The notes beneath the pieces were generated by a model, which did no database searches, had not been told where the DNA came from, and saw nothing but the letters and a program-made list of their open reading frames with translations. Position numbers and translations under genes: made by a program. DNA of 64,000 bases from positions 1-64,000 of the forward strand of contig JAEUOT010000023.1 in NCBI GenBank assembly GCA_016790705.1, given 5' to 3'. This stretch comes from Hydrogenophaga sp. (lineage in GTDB: Bacteria; Pseudomonadota; Gammaproteobacteria; Burkholderiales; Burkholderiaceae_C). This document shows, piece after piece, positions 25,102 to 56,986 of this stretch (within the stretch, counting starts at the first letter, position 1; every line of letters starts with the position of its first letter).

Positions 25102-26390
25102 CCGTAGAGATCGATCACCTGTTTCTGTTCATCGAGCCCGAAGGGCCCGAAATCGAGGCGCTGCAGCGTTCCGGTCTGACGGAGACCTACCGCCGCAGCC
25201 ACCCGGGACAGGGCACGGCCAACGTCTGCTTCGCGTTTGACAACCTCTACCTGGAACTGCTGTGGCTCACCAGCGAGGCCGAGGCCCGCAGCCCGGGCAT
25301 CTCGCGCACGGGCTTGTGGGAGCGCAGCCAGTGGGCTCGCAGCGGTGCCTGCCCCTTGGGTGTGGCGGTGCGTGGCGACATGGCCGCCGCGGGCTTGCCC
25401 ACCTGGGACTACCGGCCGCCTTACCTGCCCGAAGGGATGTCGATTCCTGTGGCCTGTGCTGGCGATGACCGGACGTTGCCGATGGTGTTCGTCTCACCAG
25501 GCAACCAGCAACCCGCCGACTGGCCGGCAGCGCGGCGTGGCGCACTGCAGCGATCCGCCGGGTTTGGCAAGATTTTTGTGGTTGACCTGGGACTGCCGGC
25601 CTCCGCCGCCAAGGCGCCATCGCTGAACGCACTGGCTTCAACGGTTCCAGGTTTGAACTTTTCGCCGAGACCCGACCGAGGACACCACCTGCGCCTCGCG
25701 CTGGCCGATCCGGCGGGGCACCACGCCCACACCTTGGATCTGGCATCCACCACCACCGGGCACTGGCGCATCGAGCTCATCGACGAGTACCTGACCGCGC
25801 GTTCTTGGCAGCGCGCATGGGCGGCACTGGGTCTGCGCGCACCCGATGGCCTGATGAAGCGTCTGCTGGATGCGTGGGCCGAGCCGCAGCGCCGCTACCA
25901 CTCGACGCAGCACCTGCACGAATGCCTGGCCCTGCTGGAACCGGTGCTGGATCTGGCGGAACACCCGGGCGAGGTCGAACTGGCGCTCTGGTTCCACGAC
26001 GCCGTCTACGACCCGCAGGGCCAGGGCAACGAAGCCCGCAGCGCCGACTGGGCCTGCGAGGCGCTCGCGCAGGCCGGCGCTGGCGCAGAGGTTCAGCAAC
26101 GGGTGCGTGCGCTGATCATGGCCACCTGCCACGACGCCGAATCAGTTGGCGACGACGCGCGGCTGCTGGTCGACATCGATCTGGCCATCCTGGGCGCCGA
26201 TCCGGCTCGCTTCGCCGAGTACGACGCGCAGGTGCGGGAGGAGTACCGATGGGTGCCTGAGCCGGTTTACCGGGGCAAACGCCGCGAGGTGCTCGCGGGG
26301 TTTCTGGCGCGGCCGGTGATCTATGGGACGCAGCGGTTCAGGGAGCGCTTCGAGGGGCGGGCGCGGGAAAATCTGAGGAACTCAGATTAG
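25098..26390 (+). CDS. Fusion of a glyoxalase-like (VOC) domain and a metal-dependent HD-type phosphohydrolase domain
   Basis: The 430-residue protein has two parts. Residues ~1-210 begin EIDHLFLFIEP, with FAFDNLYLELLWL and a GHHLRLALADPAGH segment, and look like the glyoxalase-like (VOC, PF13468-type) fold found in single-domain proteins. Residues ~225-425 match the predicted HD-superfamily hydrolases, with RRYHSTQHLHECL, LWFHDAVYDPQGQGNEARSADWA (His-Asp at ~299-300), IMATCHDAE and the later Asp in VDIDLAILG as metal ligands. The combination is unusual. The substrate of either half is unknown. It overlaps the preceding secreted protein gene by 4 nt and ends at the edge of an AT-richer island. 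Confidence 0.82.
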   Translation: MTVEIDHLFLFIEPEGPEIEALQRSGLTETYRRSHPGQGTANVCFAFDNLYLELLWLTSEAEARSPGISRTGLWERSQWARSGACPLGVAVRGDMAAAGLPTWDYRPPYLPEGMSIPVACAGDDRTLPMVFVSPGNQQPADWPAARRGALQRSAGFGKIFVVDLGLPASAAKAPSLNALASTVPGLNFSPRPDRGHHLRLALADPAGHHAHTLDLASTTTGHWRIELIDEYLTARSWQRAWAALGLRAPDGLMKRLLDAWAEPQRRYHSTQHLHECLALLEPVLDLAEHPGEVELALWFHDAVYDPQGQGNEARSADWACEALAQAGAGAEVQQRVRALIMATCHDAESVGDDARLLVDIDLAILGADPARFAEYDAQVREEYRWVPEPVYRGKRREVLAGFLARPVIYGTQRFRERFEGRARENLRNSD

Positions 26391-26656
26391 ATCGTTTGGC
26401 AGGGATCGACCCTGAGCGGCCGGTTGGACAAAGACAGTAGATCGCATGCCAGCTGTCCTGAAGCGCTGCTTAGCGGAAAGAGTGTGGTCGCGTTCTACGT
26501 CAAGAAAAAAAACTGGTCAGCGGTTCGAGAGACCGTTCATCGTATGCAGCAACAAATGCCTTCAAGGTCTCCCAAGCCTGGACAGCGGGCACGAATGTCT
26601 CGATAAACTACCTTCTTCATCGTGTCGTAGCACGACCGTCATAAGAAGGCAGATCA
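26391..26656 (+). other. AT-richer left edge of the ParA-HEPN island; putative control region
   Basis: The 266 nt between the VOC-HD gene and the ParA-like gene hold no convincing gene. A 60-codon frame at 26424-26606 has a TTG start and no family resemblance. Base composition drops here, with runs such as AAGAAAAAAAACT at 26499-26511. A TCGTG-N6-CACGA inverted repeat at 26620-26635 lies shortly before the ParA start and could be its operator. CGATAAACT at 26601-26609 resembles a -10. AAGG about 10 nt before the ATG is a weak ribosome binding site. Confidence 0.5.
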
Positions 26657-27688
26657 ATGAGCAGGTATGCGCTTTGGAACAACAAAGGGGGCGTTGGAAA
26701 AAGCTTCCTCACTTTTTCTCTTGCCTGTGAGTACGCTATAGCAAATCCGGATGAAGAAGTTCTGGTTCTTGATTTGTGTCCTCAGGCGAACTTAACTGAA
26801 ATGTTCCTTGGAGGCAAGGAAACCGCAGCGTCCGCGCTAGATGGGTATTACGGAGAAAAACCAAGACGCTCTGTTGGCGGCTATTTTGAAGCGCGCTTGA
26901 CGTCCCCATTTGTTTTGCTTCCCAATATCGACGAATTTCTGTGCAAGCCTTCAGATGTCAACACAAATATTCCGAAAAACATTTGGCTTTTGGCCGGAGA
27001 TAATTTGCTGGAATTGTTGGCCGAGGCCATCCGGGGAGTCGCGCAGCTGCCGTTGCCAGTGGACGCGTGGGCGAAAGTCATGCGGTGGCTTGTCGATCTA
27101 ACAAAAACCTTTGCCGACAACAGCCTTGCCGTAGACGTAGTAACGTTTGTCGACTGCAATCCGAGCTTTTCTATATACACACAAATTGCCTTATGCTCTG
27201 CCGAGAATCTAATGATTCCATTCACGGCCGACGACAGCTCGCGTCGAGGCATTGAGAACGTGCTCGCGCTGCTTTACGGCATGGCGTCCTCTGAACTGCA
27301 AGGCTATGCTAGGTTAAGTTTTTCCAACCGCGCTAGCGCCGACAAAATTGACTTGCCGCGCATTCACACGTTTGTAAGTAACCGCGCGACATACTATCGC
27401 GGAAAACCGAGTTCCGCCTTTGAAGCGAAGAGCGCGCCAATCAAAGCCTTGGTTGAAACAGCTGCTGCAGCAGGGAAACGGCATTTCGTGGGTCACAAGC
27501 GACTTAACGACCTTTTCGCAGAGATGCCCGACTATCATTCGGTCGCAATTGTTGCCTCTTCGGAGGGGTGCCCTCTTTCTCTGCTGCAGTCTGGGCATCA
27601 CGACATTGATGGGGATACGGTCCAAGTCAACCAGGTTTCCATTGATAAGTACAGGAAGGCTATCGCCAAGCTCGTTGAGAGGCTCTGA
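26657..27688 (+). CDS. ParA/MinD-like P-loop ATPase of a two-gene island module
   Basis: The 343-residue protein starts MSRYALWNNKGGVGKS, a deviant Walker A of the ParA/Soj/MinD class with both the signature Lys10 and the P-loop Lys15. LVLDLCPQANLTEMFLGG (~residues 34-51) is the Walker A' / switch I Asp-x-Cys-Pro-Gln motif, and VVTFVDCNPSF (~160) supplies the Walker B Asp. VPFTADD-like IPFTADDSSRRGIENVLALL (~190-210) is the ParA specificity region. No parB or replication gene is nearby, so plasmid-type segregation is unlikely. Instead the gene is coupled (TGATG) to a HEPN gene within an AT-richer segment. ParA-type ATPases can act as sensors or switches in such pairs, which is inference here. 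Confidence 0.88.
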   Translation: MSRYALWNNKGGVGKSFLTFSLACEYAIANPDEEVLVLDLCPQANLTEMFLGGKETAASALDGYYGEKPRRSVGGYFEARLTSPFVLLPNIDEFLCKPSDVNTNIPKNIWLLAGDNLLELLAEAIRGVAQLPLPVDAWAKVMRWLVDLTKTFADNSLAVDVVTFVDCNPSFSIYTQIALCSAENLMIPFTADDSSRRGIENVLALLYGMASSELQGYARLSFSNRASADKIDLPRIHTFVSNRATYYRGKPSSAFEAKSAPIKALVETAAAAGKRHFVGHKRLNDLFAEMPDYHSVAIVASSEGCPLSLLQSGHHDIDGDTVQVNQVSIDKYRKAIAKLVERL

Positions 27689-28290
27689 TGGACTCTGTAT
27701 CGCTCACCAAGTTCAGAGGGGCGGTTCTGGGCTCGCAAGTTCTTGGCAGCTTTGCTGGCGCTGCGAGCGTAATCAGCCCAAACCAGCAGTTTACGGATCA
27801 ATCCTTGCTCAAGGGAGCTGTTGCCTTGGCTGTCGGGTGCTGGGAAGGCTACCTTGAAGACGTCCTAAAAGAGTTCGTCTCAAAGACACGTGTCCAAGCT
27901 CAGCGCCGTGCATGGACACTAATCGTCCAGTTCGAGGCCATCGTTCAAAAGCTAACGGCTGACTTAAACACCCCAAACTGGGAAAAGTCTCGTGACCTCA
28001 TCCTCGGCATTACGGGCATGGATCCATACGCGTCCTGGATTTGGGCTCCGCGTTTCACCAACCAGAATGACACACAAGCCTTCATGAAGGGCATCATGGA
28101 CGTTCGTCACTCATTTGCGCATGGCTACGCCACTCCCCATGGAGTGCCAGGTCTCGCTGTGCCGGGTCTGTTGGATGCCGTCTATCTTGCAGACGCTGTA
28201 GCTTGCCTTACGTTTCTCGCGGAAACCACTGACAGGCTGCTTGAGCATGAACTGACGCATCGTCACAGCTGTACCAACGGTTGGGCTTAA
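27688..28290 (+). CDS. HEPN-domain protein with RHSFAH motif (putative RNase effector)
   Basis: The 200-residue all-helical protein has ALAVGCWEGYLEDVLKEFV (~45-63), typical of RiboL-PSP/MAE_28990-type HEPN domains, and the diagnostic R-x4-H motif RHSFAH at residues 140-145. In HEPN ribonucleases the Arg and His form the metal-independent active site at a dimer interface. The ATG overlaps the stop of the ParA-like gene by 1 nt, indicating a dedicated pair. No antitoxin-like MNT gene is present; the ATPase may control the effector. The AT-rich base composition contrasts with the flanking genes and suggests horizontal acquisition. A defence or abortive-infection role is inference. Confidence 0.83.
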   Translation: MDSVSLTKFRGAVLGSQVLGSFAGAASVISPNQQFTDQSLLKGAVALAVGCWEGYLEDVLKEFVSKTRVQAQRRAWTLIVQFEAIVQKLTADLNTPNWEKSRDLILGITGMDPYASWIWAPRFTNQNDTQAFMKGIMDVRHSFAHGYATPHGVPGLAVPGLLDAVYLADAVACLTFLAETTDRLLEHELTHRHSCTNGWA

Positions 28291-28461
28291 CGTAACAAAG
28301 AACCGTTCCTTCGCCACCGTTGAGACGACGATTCAAGGTTTTTCGGTGGCCACTGGCGGGTGAGTTGACATATTCAGCAACTCAACATCGCATGGTCATT
28401 GAAGACCTCTTTGTGGCCGCAGGGGAATGAGGCCTACTGCATCGGTGTTCCAACCTGAAAC
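28291..28461. other. Right edge of the ParA-HEPN island
   Basis: The 171 nt between the HEPN gene and the convergent mgsA hold no gene. They contain GCCACCG (near 28313-28319) repeated inverted as CGGTGGC (near 28344-28350), and GAGTTG-N10-CAACTC (near 28362-28383). Either could be a terminator-like stem, but no strong T-run follows. No direct repeat matching the left edge was found by eye. Confidence 0.4.
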
Positions 28462-28827
28462 TCAGCCCTGCATACCCGCCAACAACACCCGCGCCGTCGC
28501 CACGTTCGTCGCGCACGGCACGTTGTGCACATCACAGGCCCGCACCAATGCGTTGATGTCCGGCTCGTGGGGCTGGGCGGTCATCGGGTCGCGCAGGAAC
28601 ACGACCGCGTCGACTTCACCGGTCGACAGCCGTGCGCCGATCTGCAGGTCGCCGCCCAGCGGGCCGCTGAGCAGGCGTTCCACCGTCAGTCCCACTTCGT
28701 TCTGCAACCGGCCGCCGGTGGTGCCGGTGGCCATCAGGGTGTGTTGCTTGAGCAGCGGCGCGAACTCGGTGGCCAGGGCCACCATGTCGTCCTTCTTGCG
28801 GTCGTGCGCGACGAGGGCGATGCGCAT
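28462..28827 (-). CDS. mgsA: Methylglyoxal synthase
   Basis: The 121-residue product is a small single-domain enzyme converting dihydroxyacetone phosphate to methylglyoxal and phosphate, a bypass that relieves sugar-phosphate stress. [16 protein letters not shown] at the start, TGTTGGRLQ (~45-53), [15 protein letters not shown] (~63-77) and [15 protein letters not shown] (~85-99, with the catalytic Asp) are characteristic. The start was set at ATG 28827, which overlaps the pgi stop by 1 nt (TGATG). The enzyme is the distal member of the Entner-Doudoroff operon, an unusual but sensible place for an overflow valve. Confidence 0.94.
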
Positions 28828-30428
28828 CAGGCCTGCTTTTCCATGGATTTGGCCATGGTCTTGCCCAGCTCCACGCCCCATTGGTCGTAGGCGTTGATGC
28901 CCCAGATGGCGGCCTGCACAAACACCTTGTGTTCGTACAGCGCGATCAGCGCGCCCAGGCGGTGCGGGGTGAGCTGGTCGATCCAGAGCACGCTGTTGGG
29001 TACGTCGCCGGCAAAGCTGCGCTGGCTCACGAAGGGCTCGGCTTGGTCGGCGCTCTGACCTTCGGCCATCAGCGCCTGGAGCGTATCCGCGGCACTGCGA
29101 CCGACGGCCAGGGCCTGCGATTGGGCGCGCAGGTTGAGGTTGACCACGCGGTGGTGTTCGGCCGCCAGCGGCAGCGGCGTATCTTCGGTTTCGACGCCGA
29201 CGAACTCGACCGGCACGCGGTGCGTGCCCTGGTGCAGCAGCTGGAAGTAGGCGTGCTGCCCGTCAATGCCCAGGCCTCCCCAGAGGATGGGGCCGGTGCC
29301 GGTGTCGGCGGGCTGGCCGTCTTTGCGGGTGCGCTTGCCGTTGCTTTCCATGTCCATCTGCTGCACGAAGGGCGCGAAGCGCACCAGGCGGCTGGGGTAG
29401 CAGCTCAGCAACTGCGTCGGGCAGTTCAGGAAGTTGCGGTTCCACACTCCGCTCATCGCGAGGATGACGGGCAGGTTCTGCTCCAGCGGGGCGGAGCGGA
29501 AGTGCGCGTCCATGGCCTGGCCGCCGGCCAGGAACTCGCGGAAGGCCTTGGCACCGATGGCCATCGCCAGCGGCATGCCCAGGGCGGACCAGACGGAGTA
29601 GCGGCCACCGACCCAGTCCCAGAAGGTGAAGGTGTGCTCGGCCGGGTAGCCCGCGGCGCCGGACTTCTGCGGTGCGGCGGTGATGGCGACCAGGTGCGCG
29701 CTCTGCGCCGCGCCGGTGATGCCGCCGTCCTCCAGCCAGCGGCGGGCGCTGGCGGCGTTGGTCATGGTTTCCTGCGTCGTGAAGGTCTTGCTGGCGACGA
29801 TGACCATGGTGGTCTTCGGGTCCAGGCCGCGCAGCGTGCTGTGCAGCGCCCAGGCGTCGGGGTTGCTCACGAAGTGCACGCGAGGACCCGGAACTTTGCC
29901 GCCCTTGCCGTCGCTGCACAGCGGGGCCAGTGCGTCGGCTGCCATGCGTGGGCCGAGGTCCGAGCCGCCGATGCCGATGTTCACCACGTCGGTGAAGGCA
30001 GCGCCGGTGCTGCTCTTGACCTCACCGGCGCGCACGCGGTCGGCGAAGGCGCAGACGCGGTCGAGTTCGTTCTGCACCAGTTGCTGGATCTCGTCGCCCC
30101 AGGGCGCTGCGTCGCCGGTGGCGCCGGGTGTGCCGCGCAGGGCCACGTGCAGCACCGCGCGCTGCTCGCTGGTGTTGATGACCTCACCCGCGAACATGGC
30201 GTCGCGCTGGGCCTCGACCTTTGCTTCGCGGGCCAGTTGCAGCAGCGCCGACCAGATCGCGCCGTCGAAGGCCTGGCGCGTGAAGTCCACGCGGATGCCG
30301 GTGCCCGCCGCTGCGGCCTGCAGGGCGTCGCGTCCCGGCTGGGCCAGGCGTTCGCGCAGGTGCGGCTGCGGCAGGGCGGCGAATTGGGAGAGGGTGTGCC
30401 AGGCGGGCAGGGCGGTGGGGCTGGTCAT
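28827..30428 (-). CDS. pgi: Glucose-6-phosphate isomerase
   Basis: The 533-residue enzyme interconverts fructose-6-P and glucose-6-[12 protein letters not shown] (~145-155) binds the phosphate, and the [13 protein letters not shown] signature (~205-217) and [16 protein letters not shown] (~260-275) are diagnostic. The C-terminal SFDQWGVE-like [12 protein letters not shown] contains the catalytic Lys region. The start is ATG 30428 ([13 protein letters not shown]), 10 nt after eda. Here the reaction would run from fructose-6-P, made by the upstream fructokinase, towards glucose-6-P to supply Zwf. Confidence 0.96.
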
Positions 30429-40975: not shown

Positions 40976-41094
40976 TTCGCGGGGTCTGCAGGACCCGGGT
41001 CGGACCTGGCGGGTGGATCAACTCTGATATACCTTCACCTGCAAATGGTTGGGAGCGTCAGATTGTTGATTTCGAAATGAGCTGCCGGGGTGTC

Positions 41095-41793
41095 ATGCGA
41101 CTTTGTTTTCCGACCCAGTCTGGTGCCTTCCGACGTTGTGTGGATGTCAATCAGGTTTGGCCGCCTCATACGGCTTCACTTCGATTGGTCATCTTTGCGC
41201 TTTTGGCGGCAACACTCCTGTCAGCCAACGCGCAGGTCGATCCAGGCGTGCATGCCTCGTTGCGTGCTGATGTTCGGGCCGAGTATGAAATCCTCAGTTC
41301 TCTGGTCGACGACCTGAACCAGGACGGTCTTCCCGATTGGGTTGGCGTCCTGAAGATTCAGAGGTCTCATGGTCCGCATACCCGCATCTATGTGCTGCAA
41401 CGTGAAAAAAGTGGCATGGCGGTAAAGGGGCGTTCAAAAGAAATTGCTTTTATGGACTGCGCCGGAACATGCGGCGTCGAAATGCACGACGCCAAGCGTG
41501 GCGACTTTTTTGTTCGGCAGTACGACGCGGGCGGATGGGGGCGGGTTGGCGTGATCACTCAGTTTTCGCTGCGGAACCATCGGTGGATAGCGATCGGTCA
41601 ACGTCGGACTTCTATTGACGCGGATCACGATGTTGAAGAGACCGTCGATGTGAACTTGCTTACAGGGCAATTTGTGACGAGCAAGATATCCGGCGGAATG
41701 AGTGGGCACGCATCGCCGCCGCGCACCACAAGAGGAGTTCGTCGAAGTGCCAAGCCAATCGGTCTCGAGAGGTTCGATCCGGTTTACTTCTAG
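41095..41793 (+). CDS. Secreted hypothetical protein with a calcium-loop-like motif
   Basis: The product (up to 232 residues from ATG 41095, or 238 from ATG 41077) has a hydrophobic signal segment (LRLVIFALLAATLLSANAQ) that begins about 30 residues in, so the true start may be a later GTG near 41140. The mature part has DDLNQDGLPDWVGVL, a D-x-N-x-D-G-x-x-D loop like those of FG-GAP/VCBS or dockerin calcium sites. CAGTCGVEMHD contains the only cysteine pair of the mature protein. Base composition is AT-richer than the neighbours, suggesting recent acquisition. I do not recognise a family. It stands alone between the ROK regulator and a convergent ABC ATPase gene. Confidence 0.6.
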   Translation: MRLCFPTQSGAFRRCVDVNQVWPPHTASLRLVIFALLAATLLSANAQVDPGVHASLRADVRAEYEILSSLVDDLNQDGLPDWVGVLKIQRSHGPHTRIYVLQREKSGMAVKGRSKEIAFMDCAGTCGVEMHDAKRGDFFVRQYDAGGWGRVGVITQFSLRNHRWIAIGQRRTSIDADHDVEETVDVNLLTGQFVTSKISGGMSGHASPPRTTRGVRRSAKPIGLERFDPVYF

Positions 41794-41912
41794 GGACACT
41801 GTGCTTCAGTCCGTGAAGCAGATGATCGTCTTTCGGCGGACCACTCGATGGTTCTGTCTTGTGGTGTTCGGTGATACCGCCCTCAAGACGCTCCGAGCCC
41901 GGTGACACCGGT

Positions 41913-42566
41913 CTACTCGCCGAGCAACAGACCCGAGGCCGTCAAGTGCAACACCCGGTCCGCCCGCGCCGCGGCGTGTTCCGAGTGCGTCACCAGGATC
42001 AGTGAGGCGCCGCTGCCGGCGGTCTGGGCCTGCAGCAGGTCCATCACCTGTGCGGCGGTCGAGGGATCGAGGTTGCCGGTGGGTTCGTCGGCCAGGATCA
42101 GGCGCGGCCGGTGCACCAGCGCCCGCGCGATGGCCACGCGTTGCAACTGTCCGCCGGAGAGCTGCGCGGGCAGTCGCTCACCCAGTCCGGCCAAACCGAC
42201 CGCTTCCAGCATCTGCGCCACGCGCGCCGGGTCCGGGCGCTTGAGCAGCAGCAGGGGCAGGCCGATGTTCTGCGCCACGTCGAGGTGCGGCAGCACGTGA
42301 AAGGCCTGGAACACGAAGCCCAGCGCCTCGCGCCGCCAGTGCGCCCGCTGCGTGTCGTTGAGGCTGCCGAGGTCGGTGCCGTCCAGCGTGACCGAACCCT
42401 CCTGCCAGTCGTCCAGCGCCGCCATGCAGTTGAGCAGGCTGGACTTGCCCACGCCGGATTCGCCGACGATGGCGACGAACTCGCCGGGTTCGACGGTCAG
42501 CGACACATTGGAGAACACCGGCGTGTCGCCGTAGCGTTTGCCGAGTTGCTGGATCACGAGGCTCAT
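41913..42566 (-). CDS. ABC transporter ATP-binding protein, LolD/FtsE-like
   Basis: The 217-residue ATPase has Walker [10 protein letters not shown] (~35-43), Q-loop [14 protein letters not shown], signature [15 protein letters not shown] (~140-154) and Walker [14 protein letters not shown]. It fits the MacB/LolD/YbbA group of short ATPases that act with FtsX-like permeases. No permease is encoded next to it in this window, so its partner lies elsewhere. It overlaps miaA by 4 nt (ATGA) and is the last gene of the MFS-miaA-ABC operon. Confidence 0.9.
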
Positions 42567-54883: not shown

Positions 54884-55041
54884 CGCGGCTGGCCACCCCA
54901 GAGCATGCCGGTCAACAGGCCTGTAGCACTGTACCGGTGGGTCAGCACGGTGCCGCTGTGGTTGGTCAGCGCGGCCAGATCGCCCTTGCCGCCGCCGCTG
55001 GTGCGGTAAGTCAGGGCGGTGCAGTGGTTGGCGTGCCGATG
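54884..55041 (-). pseudogene. RHS-repeat remnant
   Basis: Translated on the minus strand this short stretch reads ANHCTALTYRT, GTVLTHRYSATGLLTGMLWG and GQPRA, clearly related to ANHSNTLTT, GTVLTHQHAANGLLTGMLWG and GKPLL in the RHS gene at 55400-56986. It has no start codon, and the similarity stops on both sides. It is therefore a broken fragment of a second, diverged RHS copy, left behind downstream of the small membrane-protein gene. Confidence 0.82.
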
Positions 55042-55124
55042 GCGATTACGCCTGCGACAGCGATTCGTGGCGATCATCCGAGATGCGACACGTAGCGTTG
55101 CACTTGACTATTGATTTCGTCCAA

Positions 55125-55400
55125 CTAAATATCAAATACAACCAGTATGCTGACGAACAAGGCTATGCTAAACATTAGGCCATGCATTTTCGGAATCTTC
55201 ATTGCCTGACATGTCAAAAAGAATAACAATCCAAATATTGAAAGCAATCCATATATTTCGATATTGGTAACGATAGCCGGGTGGAGTCTGGCTATCTTTT
55301 CAATTGCGCTTGATGAGACAATTAATCCTAGTGCTGTCGGAAAAACCGTCAATGCAACGACACCCAAAGTCACGAGTGCTATGTATTTAAGGGTTTTCAT
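55125..55400 (-). CDS. Small membrane protein, putative immunity protein of the RHS tip
   Basis: The 91-residue product has three hydrophobic segments (about residues 5-25, 42-60 and 70-90) and no other motif. Its ATG overlaps the stop codon of the RHS gene by 1 nt (TAATG), the arrangement expected for a toxin-immunity pair. The DNA is much richer in A and T than the RHS core, consistent with acquisition together with the toxin tip. The frame is open a little further upstream, but that would lie inside the RHS tip. Immunity function is inferred from position only. Confidence 0.65.
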   Translation of the reverse strand: MKTLKYIALVTLGVVALTVFPTALGLIVSSSAIEKIARLHPAIVTNIEIYGLLSIFGLLFFLTCQAMKIPKMHGLMFSIALFVSILVVFDI

Positions 55401-56986
55401 TAATTTCCCCGGGGCAGTTTTGGCGTCTTGCACATCGATGGAAGCACCTTGCACCACACAGGGGGTGGGCTCGGCTCTTTGGGTTCAAGCTGCGCGTTGC
55501 AGGTCGCTCTGCAATTTAGAAACAAATGTCCCGTTGCAGAGGGAGGCGTTCCAGTCAGCGATCCTTTCCGTGCCTGAGCGTGGCAACATTCGAGGCACTG
55601 TGCAATATCGTTACATTGCACAGCGCATGGACGACCCATTACGGGATCGATGGTCGGGTCGTTTACTTGCAGCCCTTCCGGATCCACAAACCCCAGCGGA
55701 TTCCCCCCCACATACCCAAACCGATTCCACCCGCCCTCCAACCCAATCGGATCAGCCGAGGTGTACCGCCCAACCCGAGGATCGTAAAACCGGTTCCAGT
55801 TGTAGAACAGCCCGTTGCCGTCGTCAATCTGGCCGGGGTAGCGCAGGGCGTAGCTGATCGCTGCTTGCCCCGTCGCGGGCGTTGCCTGCGGCGCGATCTC
55901 CCCAAACCCGCTGTACGGCCACTGCCACTTGACCACCTTGTTGGCGTCGGTCAGTCGCCGGGGCGTGTTCAGGTGGTCGCTGTGCACCGCGTAGTGCACA
56001 CCGTTGATGACCACAGCCACCGGCATCGGGCCGCTGGCGGTGGGCAGGTAGATGTGTTCCGTGGTGGAGAGGGCCGAAGTGCTGAGGTAACGCGTGGTCT
56101 CCGACAGCAGGTTGTGGCCCTCCATGCCGTAGCTGAAAACGCTCTGCGTGGCCGGCGTGTCGCGCAGGTAGCGCTGGCCCCAGCCGTTGAAGCGGCTGAG
56201 CGTGGTCTGGGCGCCCAGGCAGTTGGTGCCCGTGGGGCAGGGCGGCACGGCGGTGGCTTCGGCGAGCTGGCCGGCCGCGTCGTAGGCCAGGGTCTTGCCC
56301 AGCAGGCTGGTGAAGCTCATCGAGGCGCCGTTGGCGGTGATGGTGCCGCCGGTGCGGTTGCCGATGGGGCCGTAACTGTAGGTGTGACCCCACTGGAAGA
56401 CCGGCGAAGTGCCCATGGCCTGGAAGCTGGTGAGCTGGCCCAGCGCGTTGTAGTCGATGTTCTGCAGCAGTGGTTTGCCGCCCCAGAGCATGCCGGTCAG
56501 CAGCCCGTTGGCCGCGTGCTGGTGGGTCAGCACGGTGCCGCTGGGGTAGGTGATGGTGGCCAGTTGCCCCTTGCCGTTGCCGGTGCTGTAGGCGTAGCTG
56601 GTGGTGAGGGTGTTGCTGTGATTGGCGATGGCGCTGGAGAGCGTCTGCGTCTGGCGCGTCAGGCGGCCGAAGGCGTCCCACTGGTACTGCGTGGTGGCGT
56701 GAACCACACCGTCGACCTTGTCGACCATTTCGCTCAGCCGGCCCTTGCTGGCGTTAGGCAGGTCGGTGGCGTTGAAGGTGGTGCCGGTCAGGTCGTAGCG
56801 CAGCTCGGTGCGGCGGGTCTTGCCGCCGGTGACGCTCTGGACGATCACGGTTGGGTGACCCATGGCGTCGCGGGTGATGTCGGTGGCACGGCTGAGCGCG
56901 TCGACCACGCGGCTGGGTGGGCAGCAGCCCAGTCGCTGACTTTCGAACCGAATGGGGCGCCTAGTCCTGGTCGCGAGCTCGCACAA
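55400..56986 (-). CDS. RHS-repeat protein, 5'-truncated, with a Cys-rich variable C-terminal tip
   Basis: The 528-residue reading frame carries YD/RHS repeats (YQWDAFGRLTRQTQTL, ISYALRYPGQIDDGNGLFYNWNRFYDP, split around residues 95-110 and 395-420). It ends with the RHS core boundary GRYTSADPIGLEGGWNRFGYVGGNPLGFVDPEGL (~405-440). The last 88 residues are unrelated to RHS and contain nine cysteines. Complete RHS proteins are usually above 1,000 residues and have N-terminal transport domains. This frame has no such part and begins at a TTG just after a junction near 56940, so it is probably an orphan or degraded gene, or the recombined tip of an older locus. It lies downstream of an acyl-CoA synthetase gene on the same strand. 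Confidence 0.78.
   Translation of the reverse strand: MCELATRTRRPIRFESQRLGCCPPSRVVDALSRATDITRDAMGHPTVIVQSVTGGKTRRTELRYDLTGTTFNATDLPNASKGRLSEMVDKVDGVVHATTQYQWDAFGRLTRQTQTLSSAIANHSNTLTTSYAYSTGNGKGQLATITYPSGTVLTHQHAANGLLTGMLWGGKPLLQNIDYNALGQLTSFQAMGTSPVFQWGHTYSYGPIGNRTGGTITANGASMSFTSLLGKTLAYDAAGQLAEATAVPPCPTGTNCLGAQTTLSRFNGWGQRYLRDTPATQSVFSYGMEGHNLLSETTRYLSTSALSTTEHIYLPTASGPMPVAVVINGVHYAVHSDHLNTPRRLTDANKVVKWQWPYSGFGEIAPQATPATGQAAISYALRYPGQIDDGNGLFYNWNRFYDPRVGRYTSADPIGLEGGWNRFGYVGGNPLGFVDPEGLQVNDPTIDPVMGRPCAVQCNDIAQCLECCHAQARKGSLTGTPPSATGHLFLNCRATCNAQLEPKEPSPPPVWCKVLPSMCKTPKLPRGN

Follow-up and report, generated by a model that had tools for sequence, protein, structure and literature searches.

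The question raised by a short, AT-rich segment in the genome of Hydrogenophaga sp. is whether a gene for a ParA/MinD-type ATPase and the gene for a HEPN protein directly behind it belong together and, if so, what the two would do. The segment lies within a stretch of 64,000 nt, hereafter the window (assembly GCA_016790705.1, contig JAEUOT010000023.1, positions 1–64,000, forward strand), to which all coordinates given without a locus name refer. A preliminary description of the locus had put forward a nucleoside triphosphate (NTP)-driven sensor holding or releasing a ribonuclease (RNase), a model that remains plausible. The analysis reported here puts a defined family in place of a guess made from a single genome; the family has a clade, a predicted active-site signature common to the HEPNs of that clade (RHxFAHG), signs of mobility and, in Candidatus Poribacteria, a place within restriction operons. 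The ATPase and HEPN genes constitute a real, mobile and conserved two-gene module across several phyla; we consider it best explained, with a probability of about 0.6, as a mobile conflict module, in which an ATPase-controlled HEPN RNase would act in abortive infection or in a toxin-antitoxin-like manner.

Both genes are on the forward strand and adjoin as first described, at 26657–27688 and 27688–28290, through a 1-nt TGATG stop-start overlap (27686–27690), and their translational coupling is likely. The first encodes a 343-aa ATPase (P0001) with a ParA fold and an AAA_31/ParA match; its deviant Walker A motif, NNKGGVGKS (residues 8–16; 26678–26704), is intact and carries K10 and K15, and the Walker B aspartate is D166 (27152–27154). 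Of the features of the ParA/MinD (SIMIBI) group, the window ATPase has both the signature lysine of the deviant Walker A motif and the ParA fold. K10, K15, D39 and D166 are conserved in 52/52 rows of paired ATPases (the window included) and in 40/40 rows of ATPases without a HEPN partner. On the other hand, 13 ATPase positions hold a single residue in at least 90% of the paired and at most 25% of the unpaired rows (residues typical of paired ATPases include E78, F85, E123, R126, Q130, E200, F239 and Y293), and these are candidate contact sites with the HEPN.

The second gene encodes a 200-aa HEPN protein (P0002) matching Pfam PF18735 (HEPN_RiboL-PSP) with 31.8 bits, the cut-off being 28.4. The predicted RNase active-site motif, R140-H141-S-F-A-H145 (28105–28122), had been singled out in the preliminary description, and its two key residues prove conserved: in a HEPN alignment of 53 sequences, R140 is present in 51/51, H141 in 52/52 and H145 in 51/52 of the sequences having a residue there, the H145 exception being a fragment (L238). 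An inactive HEPN is disfavoured by this conservation. The distance between the ATPase and HEPN genes ranges from -1 to +15 nt in all 45 measured loci, a count made without L066, where the HEPN is split, and L086, where it is cut; both are also outside the HEPN alignment A4.

The arrangement recurs widely. With the ATPase alignment as query, 84,980 species genomes yielded 411 relatives, and among the best 80 by likeness to the window ATPase a HEPN gene lies directly 3' of the ATPase gene in 47 (by a profile made from 42 HEPNs, with the split L066 and the cut L086 among the loci). The corresponding viral scan, ranked in the same way, found a HEPN partner in four of the best 80 of 135 relatives, together with one fragment. 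As resemblance to the window ATPase decided which loci were kept, these paired shares are no census; chance pairing is nevertheless ruled out by the recurrence. Since the seed of the HEPN profile had been taken from these same loci, the assignment was checked with the independent Pfam model PF18735, which was matched by 44/44 scanned homologues (E up to 0.01; three also weakly match PF18737). Alignment A4 holds 44 of the 50 available HEPNs, that of the window included, with L076, L078, L082, L083, L094 and L095 outside it. In an ATPase tree of 100 rows, built with a quick method, excluding L112 (broken frame) and including three outgroup rows from a second lineage discussed below, those with a HEPN partner fall into a single clade, in which 52 of the 57 rows are paired (SH-aLRT 96). 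Its members belong to Pseudomonadota, Cyanobacteriota, Actinomycetota, Chloroflexota and Candidatus Poribacteria, and the window ATPase is sister to that of Delftia (82% identity). Outside the clade, the second-lineage outgroup rows apart, 40/40 rows are unpaired. Five clade members (L085, L090, L096, L098 and L100) keep the ATPase without a HEPN and are scattered among the paired rows, L098 and L100 lying close together; because these unpaired members lie among paired ones and mostly apart from each other, the HEPN has probably disappeared on more than one occasion, with the ATPase retained. Conversely, no clade HEPN lacking the ATPase was found among those examined.

Searches were also started from the HEPN. 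Among 299 Pseudomonadota genomes a clade-level score was reached by the window HEPN alone; weaker relatives (25–76 bits) occur in six other genomes, and the ATPase is present in 0/8 of the loci concerned (L300–L307). Among 244 cyanobacterial genomes, seven carry a strong HEPN, with the ATPase upstream in 7/7 (one of them being the chosen centre). Sixteen genomes were reached from clade loci, chosen for having the pair except for that of L100, where it is absent; 15 have exactly one such HEPN, and all 15 are linked to the ATPase. With tblastn, the window HEPN had no match in phages and two weak matches in plasmids, both from Rhodococcus; a Poribacteria HEPN gave three weak plasmid matches (Rhodococcus and Streptomyces), and a viral scan using the window HEPN alone returned no match. 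A second PF18735 HEPN is encoded in the genome of the window itself (G000:C43:44410–44979, minus strand; locus L023), with no ATPase neighbour found within 1.5 kb.

The pair was acquired horizontally. Its genes are richer in AT than their surroundings and use different codons, as had been noted: the G+C content (GC) is 52.3% in the island vs 68.4% in the rest of the window, and GC at third codon positions (GC3) is 0.55 and 0.59 for the two island genes vs 0.81–0.93 for eight nearby genes. In blastn comparisons, the homology of two same-genus genomes (L309 and L310) to the window ends at 26374/26376 and restarts at 28479/28483; because the flanking homology breaks there in both, the acquired island (26377–28478) appears as a variable 2.1-kb slot that carries nothing beyond the ATPase and HEPN genes. 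The slot holds a 194-aa open reading frame (ORF) with a DUF3592 match in one of these genomes and an unrelated 143-aa ORF in the other, so that the insertion site is variable, a point that the preliminary description had proposed to check. Its left neighbour is a gene with a Glyoxalase_3 match ending at 26390, and its right neighbour is the gene at 28462–28881, which we take to be mgsA. Both flanks together were found in L309 and L310 alone among 29 other loci, which reach only 1.5 kb. Between the putative mgsA and the glyoxalase-like gene, the window, L309 and L310 carry different unrelated genes, and this site is perhaps a small insertion hotspot.

Mobility and a link with defence are also reflected in other neighbourhoods. 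In Poribacteria, 11 of the 18 loci have the ATPase gene flanked on the same strand by a res homologue on its upstream side and a mod homologue on its downstream side, eight of these 11 with the HEPN, and three further loci show a mod match alone; the restriction genes of L081 match Pfam ResIII and N6_N4_Mtase. Outside Poribacteria, matches to the PADLOC database beside the pair are sparse and scattered. In four Poribacteria loci without HEPN (L085:6196–9397, L096, L098 and L100), the genes behind the ATPase encode a membrane-type protein and another small protein, with mod next in line; the same two small proteins come after the HEPN in L081 and L083, and one of the small Poribacteria proteins following the HEPN or ATPase has a sub-cut-off match to Herpes_UL14 as its sole match. 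A phage integrase is present in two of the four viral contigs carrying the pair, and PHROG integrases and tail proteins are found among 17 neighbours. The wider neighbour scan covered 121 of 187 candidate ORFs at 23 of 27 loci; by Pfam these are mostly ordinary genes, with phage integrase in three (among the 25 commonest families). As for the pair itself, the best match of the window ATPase in PADLOC-DB 2.0.0 is PDC-M28B (E 0.02, 39 residues), too weak to count as a match to a listed defence model, and the window HEPN has no match there at E up to 1.

A second lineage combining a ParA-type ATPase with a HEPN emerged from PF18735 loci. Two of 30 such loci (L028 and L037) encode another PF18735 HEPN with a ParA-type ATPase carrying KGGVSKTTT and 26% identical to that of the window; in the other 28, a search up to 1.5 kb on each side, using blastp with the ATPase of the window together with a KGGxGK pattern, gave no such ATPase neighbour, although other ParA types could escape it. 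The same second operon lies on a conjugative plasmid of Burkholderia glumae (L049:4949–6588, the one looked at among 14 plasmid records carrying a HEPN of this kind), and all six viral contigs with a second-lineage HEPN (L134–L139) have the second-lineage ATPase upstream. The HEPN motif of this lineage is RRN-x3-H (9/9). In PADLOC, the ATPases of two pairs from genomes show a short Walker-region match to PDC-M28B (best 2.1e-7), and their HEPNs show none. The two lineages stand apart in the HEPN tree, and an approximately unbiased (AU) test goes against uniting them (p 0.0008), so that a single shared origin is rejected on the HEPN side, in a tree with several long branches and weak deep forks; ParA ATPases and RiboL-PSP HEPNs have therefore probably met at least twice.

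HEPN RNases are active in dimeric form, the R/H site being a composite one, and require a keeper, as in HepT/MntA and PrrC. The effector of the present module would be the HEPN, an RNase acting through R140 and H145 and probably dimeric, and the ParA-type ATPase, made just earlier from the same message, would bind it and hold it latent. An altered nucleotide or DNA-bound state of the ATPase, as might be produced by a phage or plasmid disturbing the nucleoid or the restriction system, would then be the trigger, upon which the released RNase would cut cellular RNA and growth would stop. The ATPase is cast as the keeper because it is encoded first and exists without the HEPN, while no examined clade HEPN exists without the ATPase. 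The ParA fold suggests control by the ATP state and possibly by DNA binding; proteins of this fold are capable of ATP-dependent DNA binding. In Poribacteria the HEPN may serve as a backup, freed when restriction or the state of the DNA is disturbed, a role suggested by the location of the pair in a restriction operon, like that of PrrC. RNase activity, direct contact between the two proteins, the direction of control, the trigger and phage defence are what we infer from these comparisons; the occurrence of the same ATPase with and without an RNase offers direct test cases for ParA-type ATPases as RNase gatekeepers.

The anticodon nucleases PrrC and RloC, in which an ABC ATPase is fused to a HEPN in one chain, PrrC being encoded within a type I restriction operon, share with the present pair an NTPase-controlled HEPN RNase and, in Poribacteria, the restriction-operon location, but here the ATPase is a separate ParA-fold chain and the restriction system is type III-like. 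Tentatively, and with rather more doubt than confidence, the module could be seen as a split counterpart of PrrC, the ParA-fold ATPase sensing the condition of the nucleoid or a restriction enzyme and gating a separate HEPN RNase, with ParA gates for RNases having arisen at least twice; if this were true, the ParA fold would be a sensor class of bacterial immunity, so far predicted only. The HEPN/MNT systems (HepT/MntA; PMC7641770, PMC11586414), as set out in the available parts of these reports, likewise comprise two genes, one for a HEPN RNase effector and one for a partner that uses an NTP, a nucleotidyltransferase there and an AAA_31/ParA-fold ATPase here. Tha of staphylococcal prophages (PMC11087260) is also a prophage-borne anti-phage system with a HEPN domain; compared by description only, the accessible portion of that report mentions no ParA-type ATPase partner.

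The nearest precedent makes the initial label of an undescribed system too strong. Anantharaman et al. (2013; PMC3710099, available part) predicted a dyad of a HEPN of the MAE_18760 family with a ParA/Soj ATPase, the ATPase being considered the antitoxin. Judged by its gene order and spacing, the pair described here shares the operon arrangement of a HEPN with a ParA/Soj-type ATPase. Its HEPN belongs to another family, whereas the HEPNs here are PF18735, for which the table in that source gives ParB, and not ParA, as the operon partner of Ribo L-PSP-HEPN. No PF18737 match was found in the window HEPN at E up to 1, the best of the three weak matches among the 44 homologues being 0.0011, and a ParA-like neighbour was present within about 1.5 kb in 0/30 cyanobacterial PF18737 loci; that the pair is of the same family as the 2013 dyad is thus not upheld. 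A literature search, made mostly outside subscription journals, gave among the matches listed neither a report on this PF18735 HEPN and ParA pair nor an experimental follow-up of the 2013 antitoxin prediction. The ParA and HEPN principle had already been predicted in 2013 for another HEPN family, and the PF18735 version is new.

Several observations weigh against a conflict module built around the HEPN. The ATPase is without a HEPN match in 33 of the best 80 genome loci and 75 of the best 80 viral loci, and its relatives occur on 304 plasmid records and three phage records; since the family is mostly HEPN-free, the ATPase must have some function of its own. The linkage anticipated in the preliminary description thus stands for the clade and not for the wider ATPase family, where those 304 plasmid records compare with the two weak HEPN matches; no HEPN was found beside the ATPase relatives in the five plasmid loci examined. 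Homologues of the Poribacteria Res and Mod proteins are present in 0/66 other loci (with these proteins as queries, other restriction families are possible), so the restriction link may be a single ancestral event. Outside Poribacteria, the PADLOC matches among the 121 ORFs that neighbour the pair at 23 loci, evaluated without a control set, are scattered (mad8 in four; SspH, mad3, pVip, PycC and PbeA in two each). Foldseek gave no significant match for the HEPN, and a promoter scan for the pair gave 0 matches of the sigma-70 type. Moreover, the locus of the L036 HEPN, which falls within the second lineage, encodes no such ATPase, and no ATPase neighbour accompanies a weak Rhodococcus plasmid HEPN (L053), the closest one outside the clade by the HEPN tree.

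In two phages, phi297 and ST11-VIM1phi8.2 (the latter from Klebsiella), the gene of the solitary ATPase stands directly after a repressor gene, and in two plasmids, a small one from Salmonella and one of type IncY, it comes after a helix-turn-helix (HTH) gene; such unpaired WNNKGG ATPases behind repressor or HTH genes are found at L051:5959–7011, L052:5950–7026, L004:2552–3571 and L007:4956–6011. Among 41 genes upstream of unpaired representatives, Peptidase_S24 was matched in six and HTH_3 in six, so the post-repressor position recurs but is not general. This slot often holds lysogenic-conversion or exclusion genes, and rexAB of lambda occupies the same place; no literature tying ParA-like prophage genes to superinfection exclusion was found in our search. 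The ATPase might itself be anti-invader, with the HEPN added later and killing cells in which the ATPase fails or has been blocked, which would agree with the position in the two phages, with the six Peptidase_S24 matches and with the confinement of the HEPN to one clade; we regard this as unlikely, as the unpaired ATPase has no assigned function, the post-repressor position is seen for part of the set only and the root of the tree rests on a distant outgroup. The same solitary ATPases, widespread in prophages and plasmids and in some cases directly behind cI-type repressors, speak against a mere antitoxin, as does the location within type III-like restriction operons, which points to defence. 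A plain toxin-antitoxin pair, that is, an addiction element without phage sensing in which the ATPase would sequester or modify the HEPN (as MntA does with HepT), is therefore doubtful, even though the two-gene order, the tight coupling and the asymmetry of ATPase-only members fit it and it corresponds to what was predicted in 2013 for the dyad with MAE_18760 (PMC3710099, in its available part).

Finally, ParA-type proteins invite the idea of partition or positioning, the ATPase placing a cargo on the nucleoid and the HEPN acting as a non-catalytic adaptor at the position of ParB. Nothing pointing to a plasmid partition locus was found, in line with the preliminary description, and this reading appears very improbable. 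While ParABS systems have parB beside parA, the next gene here is the HEPN in the window and in the 47 relatives mentioned above; the contig context is chromosomal, and no parB was seen on reading the ORFs of about 18.8–35.5 kb (no ParB hidden Markov model was run). Centromere-like repeats between 26200 and 28700 amount to two-copy 14-nt matches with no array (single-site parS was not searched). The near-invariant catalytic R and H and the five clade members keeping the ATPase without a HEPN further disfavour a partition locus.

Besides the island, two other 1-kb stretches of the window are low in GC, 41001–42000 (0.569) and 55001–56000 (0.540), and possibly contain acquired genes. In one same-genus genome, several partial mgsA-like matches stand in a row (G024:C1:2303991–2304620), perhaps as the result of a tandem duplication.
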